Source: Eisenbergiella tayi
GTDB lineage: Bacteria; Bacillota; Clostridia; Lachnospirales; Lachnospiraceae
Direction of reading: 5' to 3'
DNA length: 64,000 nucleotides
Assembly: GCF_001881565.1 (NCBI RefSeq)
Contig: NZ_MPDJ01000005.1
Location: 647,347-711,346, forward strand
Shown here: in pieces, positions 12,407 through 60,623 of the stretch
Position numbering within the stretch: position 1 is the first letter of the stretch
How the letters are laid out: each line of letters begins with the position of its first letter
The notes under the pieces: generated by a model
Database searches by the model: none
What the model saw: the letters and a program-made list of their open reading frames with translations, nothing else
Told to the model about the DNA's origin: nothing
Position numbers and translations under genes: made by a program

Positions 12407-12507
12407 CTTTTTACTAGATTTTTAAGGTTTTGCAGCAAAAATATATTATATATGTAAAAACGATTATTATCTCTCCTTTTTCAGCTTGTTCACATTAAAT
12501 ATCAGTA

Positions 12508-12802
12508 ACTCAAACTCCGCACATGCCCCTGTCCCCTCCGGCCTCTGTTTCCGGCGCTGTCAGCCGGTTTGGATTTCCATCCCCCTGCGCCGGCCGTGCA
12601 GGGTTTCCTGTAAGGGGCGTATAAACTCGCCGGTCCTTAGGCCGCGTATTTTGCGGCCTTAGTACCGCTGCGTGTTTATCCGAACGAGAGTGTCCCCTTT
12701 AAGGATTCCTGCACGGCCGGCGCAGGGGGATGGAAATCCAAACCGGCTGATAGCGCCGGAAACAGAGGCCGGAGGGGACAGGGGCATGTGCGGAGTTTGA
12801 GT
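12508..12802. repeat. Long palindromic element A (two 95-base arms)
   Basis: The left arm (12508-12602) and right arm (12708-12802) are reverse complements over 95 bases with one mismatch (G opposite T). The 105-base centre folds further: TAAGGGG with CCCCTTTA, ATAAAC with GTTTAT, and a hairpin AGGCCGC-GTATTTT-GCGGCCT. It lies between the beta-galactosidase terminator and the promoter of the next operon, so it may not be transcribed from either. The centre contains CTAAGGACCGGCGAG on the minus strand, resembling CTAAGGACGGGCAG in elements B and C. The small ORF within it is an artefact of the palindrome. Confidence 0.9.
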
Positions 12803-12829
12803 CAGTAAAATGAAACAGACATAAAAATA

Positions 12830-36449: not shown

Positions 36450-36856
36450 GGAAGGGAGTATGATTCCGGCCCCGTATCCCTGGCGCTGCATTCGGCTGCC
36501 TCCCTGCCCGGAGCCTCTGCGCCCTCCCTCCCCTGCCCTGTGGGATTCCTTATGTATCATACGGTACAGACAAAAAAAGGTGCTGTTTCTAACTGTTTTG
36601 TCCCTATCCTTTACTGCCAACGCGGCTGAACTCCTCCCTGCGGTCGTCGTAGCGACTTTAGTCGCTTACATCGCCGCTAAGGACGGGCAGTAAAGGATAG
36701 GATCAAAACAGTAAGAAACAGCTACCTTTTTTTGAGATGCACCGTATGATACATAAGGAATCCCACAGGGCAGGGAAGGGAGGGCGCAGAGGCTCCGGGC
36801 AGGGAGGCAGCCGAATGCAGCGCCAGGGATACGGGGCCGGAATCATACTCCCTTCC
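36450..36856. repeat. Long palindromic element B (arms of about 170 bases)
   Basis: Left arm 36450-36618 and right arm 36686-36856 are reverse complements apart from a few mismatches and small indels near the inner end. Inside the arms are A7 (36572-36578) and T7 (36727-36733) next to a CTGTTTCT/AGAAACAG dyad, which would form an intrinsic terminator in both directions. The core (36614-36690) has CTCCTCCCTGCGGTCGTC, a small hairpin GTAGCGAC-TTTA-GTCGCTTAC and CGCCGCTAAGGACGG. The core and inner arm motifs recur in element C in the other orientation. It lies between the convergent trxB and Fe-ADH genes. Confidence 0.92.
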
Positions 36857-47831: not shown

Positions 47832-48195
47832 GGTTCTTTCTCCCGTCAGGGTATTCCTCGTCCGCGCTGTGACCTTACGCTCCCCATTCTCCTTCGTCCT
47901 GTGTCCGGCCAGGCACGTTGCTGTTTGGCATGGACATCTCAAAAAAAGGGAACTGTTTCTTACCATTTCCTTTCCATGATCTGCTGCCGTCCCTAGCGGC
48001 GCTGTCTGACGACCGCAGGGAGGAGTTTAAGCCACGTTGGCAGCGGAGCATGGAAAGAAAATGGTTAGAAACAGCCCCTTTTTTTGTCTGTCCATGCCAA
48101 ACAGCAACGTGCCTGGCCGGACACAGGGCGAAGGAGAATGGGGAGCGTAAGGTCACACAGCGCGGACGAGGAATACCCTGACGGGAGAAAGAACC
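47832..48195. repeat. Long palindromic element C (arms of 157 bases)
   Basis: Left arm 47832-47988 and right arm 48039-48195 are reverse complements with a few mismatches and a 2-base indel. On the minus strand the core (48043-47984) matches the core of element B: CTGCCAACG, CTCCTCCCTGCGGTCGTC, CGCCGCTAGGGACGG, but the small internal hairpin is absent. A7 (47941-47947) and T7 (48079-48085) flank CTGTTTCT-type motifs as in B. Outside the arms, AAAAAAGG..CAT pairs with ATGG.CTTTTTT, so the fold may extend to about 47810-48222. It lies between the SBP stop and the sulfatase start. Confidence 0.92.
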
Positions 48196-60367: not shown

Positions 60368-60525
60368 TCCCATTCTCCCTTATCCGGCCTGCTTATGGCA
60401 GACGATTCCGGTATAAACCGGTATCCCGCCGGTTACAGCCCGGAGCCGGATGGCTCCGGGGATAAAATACATAGGTACAGTATAGCATCAAAAAGTTTGT
60501 CTTTCTACATAATCCGGAATAAAAC

Positions 60526-60598
60526 AGAGCGCATCCCGCACTGTACCCGTTTCTCACCCACGGACAGAGAGAAACGGGTACTGCAGAGGATACGCTCT
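60526..60598 (-). terminator. Long terminator hairpin after glmM
   Basis: AGAGCG and GTACCCGTTTCTC pair with GAGAAACGGGTAC and CGCTCT (interrupted by a small internal loop and ATCC/GGAT). The minus strand continues GTTTTATT. Confidence 0.75.
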
Positions 60599-60623
60599 TT
60601 TTCTAATTACTTCCTTATATTTT

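Follow-up and report, generated by a model that had tools for sequence, protein, structure and literature searches.

Three long palindromes in one genome region

Palindromes whose two arms match each other almost perfectly, yet mostly differ from one copy to the next, raise the question of what keeps the arms alike. An earlier note on the 64,000-nt stretch of DNA analysed here (the window) had described two such elements, B and C, which share a core. As explanations it considered very strong selection on structure, homogenisation of the arms by copying, or an insertion that duplicates its flank in inverted form. For identification of all candidates, inverted repeats with arms of at least 40 nt, up to 1.5 kb apart, were listed over the whole window. 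All listed pairs derive from B (including its inner stem), from C and from a third element, A (Table 1). The near-perfect inverted arms of B and C were recovered in this mechanical search. In B, the arms 36450-36578 and 36728-36856 (129 nt) are 95% complementary, and self-alignment leaves two mismatches outside the CATCTC/CAGAC zone. The arm pairs of C (47832-47871 and 47863-47950 on the left, 48075-48162 and 48156-48195 on the right) are 100% and 91% complementary. The arms of A are located at 12499-12602 and 12708-12811, and its ends are adjoined by the 5-bp direct repeat CAGTA. The spacers between the arms of the three elements measure 105-149 nt. All three sit between presumed genes, as judged from long mechanical ORFs only. 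As described before, B and C carry the same core in opposite orientation, with the A7 and CTGTTTCT inner motifs. In longer genome matches the core of B aligns over query positions of about 8-181. At 60522-60602 the window also has an imperfect inverted repeat of smaller size, with arms of 34 nt (79%).

Known RNA families were considered and rejected. In an Rfam search of the whole window, a tRNA was the only match above gathering score. With B and A alone, a plant miRNA precursor model scored best, with 125.9 bits where its gathering score is 230; we ascribe this to the response of this model to any long hairpin.

Table 1. Coordinates of the palindromic elements in the window (1-based; "." indicates a feature without strand).
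Feature	Position	Strand	Remark
Element B, whole palindrome, 407 bp	36450..36856	.	palindrome detection
Element B, left outer arm, copy-specific	36450..36566	.	counterpart on the right extends to 36856
Element B, conserved core	36567..36740	- (GACGACC strand)	A7/T7 tracts, fixed asymmetric inner stem
Element B, apical motif GACGACC-NNN-GGGAGGAGTT	36629..36648	-	C19:683975-683994, minus
Element C, whole palindrome, 364 bp	47832..48195	.	B family, core orientation opposite to B
Element C, apical motif GACGACC-NNN-GGGAGGAGTT	48008..48027	+	C19:695354-695373, plus
Element A, second, more numerous family	12499..12811	.	type-i ends (ACTCAAAC)
A-family conserved core, 131 bp	12590..12720	+	same-orientation matches 84-97% identical

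The B/C family

With the B core as query (E <= 1e-3), the core proved not to be limited to two copies: about 35 distinct B/C-type places were found in the own genome (G000), merged by hand from 54 matches, with the best 40 of 48 candidates scored. Completeness of this assembly (7.56 Mb in 23 contigs) is estimated at 99.5% and contamination at 12.33%; some contigs may therefore stem from another organism. Among 31 loci examined, 29 self-align as long palindromes around the conserved core and show the motif pattern; L005 differs in its motif and L026 is broken. The asymmetry noted for B and C is a property of the family. Read on the GACGACC strand, TTCTTA (or ATCTTA) lies to the left in 24 of the 29 copies and TTAGAA to the right in 26, and 17 copies combine CATCTC (or CATCTG) on the left with GTCTG on the right. 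None of the 29 has these words the other way round, with CAGACA on the left and TGAGATG or TCAGATG on the right. The outer arms are mostly not shared between copies, again in agreement with the earlier description: 5 of 406 arm pairs score above 99.9% of shuffles, and the best-scoring pair includes core sequence. No target-site duplication was seen. At the ends of 25 of the 29 copies there is no direct repeat of 6 or more, and the other four show 6-mers only, which is nothing beyond chance (null 38/300).

The B core was also found in G001 and G002, two genomes of the same genus, and had no match in the other 58 relatives searched. Its matches to plasmids and phages were short and chance-like only, and we rejected an origin from either on this basis. 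Viral contigs contained no match to either of two exact patterns, one for A and one for B. Relative to neighbouring long ORFs, the B core is co-directional in 8 copies each way, convergent in 5 and divergent in 3, with 5 lacking a call. This balance, which rests on crude longest-ORF calls, led us to reject a link between orientation and transcription. A fixed replication direction is also hard to reconcile with B and C, whose cores point in opposite directions at a distance of 11 kb. Two copies, L021 (G000:C19:408933-409251) and L024 (G000:C8:61971-62290), have a further palindrome, some 150-170 bp long, within the B core. The two inner palindromes resemble each other and have their own arms, which by eye looks like a nested insertion.

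The A family and its two types of ends

The A family occupies at least 70 distinct places in G000 when several match lists are combined, at least 40 of them found by the A-core search alone. We fetched and read 41 loci (L202-L213, L244-L272) and six further elements with a second type of ends. Within the genus, 27 A-like matches were found in G012 (a second species), 12 in G002, 19 in G001 and one in G011; the last was inspected and looked spurious. Part of the A core was detected in 14 of 298 other genomes sampled from the taxonomic family, with the best two candidates per genome considered. Nine loci from other genera of this family (L331-L339) show the apical hairpin of the A core together with neighbouring words. 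In eight of these, differing self-complementary flanks surround or adjoin the A core; in L335 the apical hairpin stands alone.

Two types of ends could be distinguished, and both carry the A core within G000. Both ends were recognised in 16 of 17 type-i copies (ACTCAAAC ends) and in 27 of 30 type-ii candidates (GGGTGYAGATAAA ends). Type-i ends are flanked by 5-bp direct repeats in 9 of the 16 (5 exact), compared with 9 of 240 mismatched pairs (none exact). Type-ii ends show 9-bp repeats, counted with at most 1 mismatch, in 14 of 27 copies (8 exact). Among core-sized type-ii elements these occur in 11 of 22 (7 exact) and in none of 200 flank shuffles, and among the type-ii elements of G000 in 2 of 6 (L304, L305). 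Direct repeats of other lengths at either type of end are few. G012 also contains short type-ii elements without core (L296-L300), of which L297-L299 look by eye like deletion derivatives that kept unequal remnants of the inner arms.

Mobilisation by a RAYT/Y1 transposase was considered and is unsupported, since G000 has no intact Y1 gene and no association between Y1 genes and elements was seen. The two Y1 matches in G000 both contain stops. G012 has 8 Y1 matches, G002 has 3, and G001 has none next to its 19 A-like matches. In the fetched flanks of 12 Y1 loci, the B motif was near none.

Lockstep change of the two arms

Whether the arms of a copy change together was analysed in the A family, in which 17 of the 41 G000 loci were aligned as 34 arms. 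The remaining 24 were left out as partial, located at a contig end, interrupted by N runs or provided with arms of another type. The arm-to-arm distance is 0.040 within a copy (0 to 0.108) and 0.263 between copies, and for 33 of the 34 arms the closest arm of all is the partner in the same copy. We counted 111 alternative states that are mirrored in the partner arm, spread over 76 of 100 columns and made up of 53 transitions and 58 transversions. One-sided differences affect 65 of 1645 cells; when the right arms were dealt out anew among the copies, the mean was 407 and the minimum 257 in 2000 trials. Gap cells are mirrored in 52 cases and one-sided in 3. The one-sided differences consist of 22 GU-type, 21 AC-type and 22 transversion cases and show no wobble bias. 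Counted per 10 columns from tip to core, they number 20, 12, 9, 2, 2, 2, 1, 1, 4 and 12 (chi-square P 3e-9). They are thus most frequent at the tips and beside the core, whereas divergence between copies peaks in the middle of the arm. This position pattern suggests that homogenisation continues after insertion; copying at each transposition could also produce it.

In G012 the same pattern was observed in a weaker form. Of 18 fetched copies 16 were used, L276 and L279 having other arms. Here the distance is 0.052 within and 0.138 between copies. We found 35 mirrored states and 57 one-sided differences (9 GU, 17 AC, 31 transversions) against a shuffle mean of 150 and a minimum of 102 in 1000 trials, but only 19 of 32 arms are nearest to their own partner. 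The earlier note had asked whether an inverted duplication in the assembly might explain the palindromes; their recurrence in the assembly of another species argues that they are real.

Two pairs of copies allow a clean comparison. Between L302 and L303 there are 12 mirrored gap columns, 11 of them in one block, and 5 mirrored substitutions, compared with 2 substitutions and 1 gap that are one-sided. Element C and a copy on contig C18 (L198) differ by 10 mirrored substitutions and 1 one-sided one; of their gap columns 3 are mirrored and 7 one-sided, and unequal inner ends account for 5 of these 7. The centre of L198 is a run of N that hides its core, and the comparison covers the arms. Together with the A family, such pairs support homogenisation by copying as suggested in the earlier note. 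The arms of L274 (14.7% difference within the copy) and L232 (11.8%) are clearly not homogenised; such copies, and the low number of nearest partners in G012, speak against copying.

The mismatches in the outer arms of the B family are distributed differently. In the 26 copies split into zones for one count, there are 14 GU-type, 40 AC-type, 25 transversion and 28 gap cases. A second count, summed over 29 copies and read on the GACGACC strand, gave 43 AC-type and 14 GU-type transition mismatches (P 1.5e-4). Per copy, AC-type mismatches prevail in 18 and GU-type in 5, with 6 ties (P 0.01). The skew corresponds to wobble-type pairs on the strand opposite GACGACC, occurs in co-directional settings of both kinds and has no visible link to the direction of neighbouring genes. 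It runs counter to copying, and RNA-level selection or a strand-biased C-to-T change could account for it.

Sites in a relative and exchange of arms

The genome G012 is syntenic with G000 at about 80% identity and has neither B nor C at the same gene junctions. At these orthologous junctions we found short hairpins instead: at the B site one with a 16-bp stem (by eye) between the same two genes, and at the C site a terminator-like hairpin (stem likewise by eye). B and C can be either insertions in the own lineage or losses in that of G012.

Several sites bear on the question of whether arms are taken from the flank, as in the proposal of the earlier note that an insertion copies its flank in inverted form. 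In L276 of G012, the core is identical to that of its reference sibling at 121 of 126 positions, and the outer arms of about 48 nt are unrelated to those of the sibling and perfectly mirrored. G000 has no element at this site; the gene downstream was taken as glutamate synthase (gltB) from its first residues by eye. Comparison of the L276 arm with this gltB site was not significant on either side (right 574, left 4764 of 5000 shuffles as good). The palindrome of L303 runs 14 nt, with one mismatch, past the transposon end into the flank, and no direct duplication is present. To the left of C, a stretch of 44 nt, made up of 26 nt of flank and 18 nt of the arm tip, matches the G012 site so well that 1 of 5000 shuffles was as good. 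The same result was obtained to the right of B for a stretch of 40 nt with 28 nt of arm and 12 nt of flank. The test on the right side of C was also significant (none of 5000 shuffles as good), and that on the left side of B was not (333 of 5000). Since the significant stretches include plain flank, they show homology of the junction more than of the arm. The copy on contig C18 shares the arm tip of C, so capture at the left side of C can be read in either direction. L276, L303 and the left side of C are hints of a capture or swapping of arms. As a general rule, copying of the flank at insertion does not hold, because target duplications lie outside the arms and arms are shared between copies; what stands of that proposal are the hints at L303 and C left.

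Origin of the arm symmetry

From the patterns of sequence change, we consider A, B and C to be, with good probability, MITE-like palindromes whose arms are kept alike by templated copying from arm to arm. Such an element would be a non-autonomous, interspersed palindrome with a conserved, slightly asymmetric core and arms of about 60-130 nt. One arm would serve as template for the other, most simply by replication template switching inside the hairpin (quasipalindrome correction), or by gene conversion. A mutation or indel in one arm would be either erased or mirrored. The arms would drift fast yet in lockstep, and the core would be kept by its own function. What the data show are the multi-copy families, the junctions of a relative that lack B and C, the target duplications of A-type copies and the lockstep arms with their mirrored transversions and indels. 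The copying enzymes and the transposases that would move the elements are putative, and copying would take place after insertion and not just at transposition. B and C, for which target duplications were not detected, presumably behave like the A elements.

A quite unlikely alternative is that selection for an RNA or single-stranded DNA hairpin keeps the arms complementary through compensatory point mutations. The fixed asymmetries of the core are evidence of selection on some features, the one-sided transitions of the B family are of wobble type on one strand, and by eye the A7/T7 tracts around the inner stem resemble a bidirectional intrinsic terminator, although a consensus terminator scan did not list this inner stem of B. 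Against such selection, mirrored transversions in the A family are as frequent as transitions, gaps are mirrored almost throughout, and the intermediates are balanced between GU and AC types, with one third being transversions. The core orientation is likewise balanced with regard to neighbouring long ORFs. Compensatory mutation needs G-U or mismatched intermediates and would hardly mirror an indel of 11 bases, which favours copying. Of the very strong structural selection considered in the earlier note, what may persist is some selection at the RNA level, as the B skew could mean. Template switching or gene conversion is also favoured, for most copies, over a fresh inverted duplication of flanking host DNA at every insertion. 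The unrelated, mirrored arms of L276 around a near-identical core, the symmetry of L303 beyond its end and the matches at C left and B right would agree with a fresh duplication. We regard it as improbable. Homologous arms recur in many copies inserted at different sites, and the target duplications are located beyond the arms. In addition, the flank tests that gave significance contain flank that is already homologous, and those for B left and both gltB sides were not significant.

It is unlikely, too, that the core is a REP-like mobile hairpin that enters the loops of existing palindromes, such as terminators or core-less MITEs, and that the arms belong to the target. This scheme would fit the terminator-like hairpins at the B and C sites of G012 and the REP dimers published as occurring inside palindromes (described in part of PMC3733652). 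It would also accommodate an A core that is combined with either 5-bp or 9-bp duplicating ends, and a B apical motif whose stems in other phyla are unrelated in sequence. However, the core-less L297-L299 look like deletion derivatives, and lockstep change within one arm family is left without an explanation. An assembler that collapsed or duplicated inverted arms is a very remote explanation. Contig ends and N runs do occur in some copies, but the single-contig assembly of G012 shows the same pattern, one-sided arm differences persist, and different loci have different arms, many with target duplications. In G000, the contigs C7, C11, C12, C17 and C22 end within a few hundred bases of A or B copies, and N runs occur in others; the palindromes probably break assemblies.

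On the reading as palindromes homogenised by arm-to-arm copying, a further step can be suggested tentatively, and we hold it to be rather doubtful: the core may swap its transposon. A mirrored change of arms would give a new matching pair of ends, acquired as a whole in one or a few events, and mobility under a different transposase. The A core between ends that duplicate 5 or 9 bp, the arms of L276 and the B motif on unrelated stems would be possible traces of such swaps.

The earlier note had called the persistence of long palindromes surprising given SbcCD, and this is borne out by an SbcD homologue in G000; loss of SbcD is therefore not the reason for their survival. Homologues above the cut-off were also found in G012, G002 and G001. 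The spacers between the arms may soften attack by SbcCD. These elements raise the question of what allows long palindromes to persist despite an encoded SbcD.

Comparison with known systems

That the arms of a palindrome can evolve in concert is already known for quasipalindrome mutagenesis, RNA stems and some organelles. Like bacterial MITEs, the A elements are multi-copy, have no evident gene and possess inverted ends and, in A-type copies, target duplications. Unlike MITEs, the elements are almost wholly palindromic (up to about 430 bp) with copy-specific arms, and one core is common to two end types with different duplication lengths. REP/BIME sequences of the GTAG and CGTC families, as far as described in passages of PMC3733652, are likewise small conserved apical hairpin modules in many copies, sometimes in larger palindromes; the present elements are far longer, and their conserved cores exceed 20-40 bp. 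The text definition of CGTC REPs given there includes a stem of 8-9 bp that opens with A-T pairs, a loop of 4-5 nt and a CCA-like tail. By eye and against this text definition, B has GGTCGTC followed by AGACA or similar and no such stem.

Homogenisation of inverted repeats by template switching, with multi-base compensatory change, is reported in sections of PMC8794818, PMC8604942 and PMC7202029, and concerted evolution of long palindromes in Nematomorpha mitochondria in a section of PMC6649704. As in quasipalindrome correction described there in part, inverted-repeat arms change in concert with multi-base compensatory changes, and arm differences appear to be removed or mirrored together, transversions and indels included. 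The mitochondrial palindromes (PMC6649704) are similar in length to the present elements. In contrast to those systems, the copies here are mobile elements dispersed by the dozen over a bacterial chromosome; their arms measure about 60-130 nt, and events can be counted. In a literature search with the B motif strings and the topic, which covers text and not figures, none of the papers listed reported such element families. Homogenisation of arms as such is already known; the scale and the interchangeable ends look new and, with the shared apical modules, set these families apart as a variant within a known class of mechanism. Dozens of dispersed copies in one genome, together with sibling species, amount to a natural archive from which the number, position and rate of mirrored and one-sided changes can be read. 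They also caution against taking perfect covariation of a stem as proof of RNA function.

The apical motif of B in other phyla

The pattern AACTCCTCCCTNNGGTCGTC occurs in at least 107 stretches of the genome collection. The matches listed, many of them several per genome, include Bacteroidota, Spirochaetes, Omnitrophota and Gastranaerophilales. At these loci (L036-L142) the apical motif TGTYTGACGACC-NNN-GGGAGGAGTT stands on stems of unrelated sequence. Among the 106 listed sites with flanks of sufficient length, self-complementarity equals or exceeds that of 95% of shuffles in 75 (that of 99% in 58), and some of the other 31 look like coding matches. The three-base centre is mostly purine-first in the 106 listed sites (GAA 51, GCA 17, AAA 16), its last base A being forced by the search pattern. 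Such triloops can form very stable DNA mini-hairpins.
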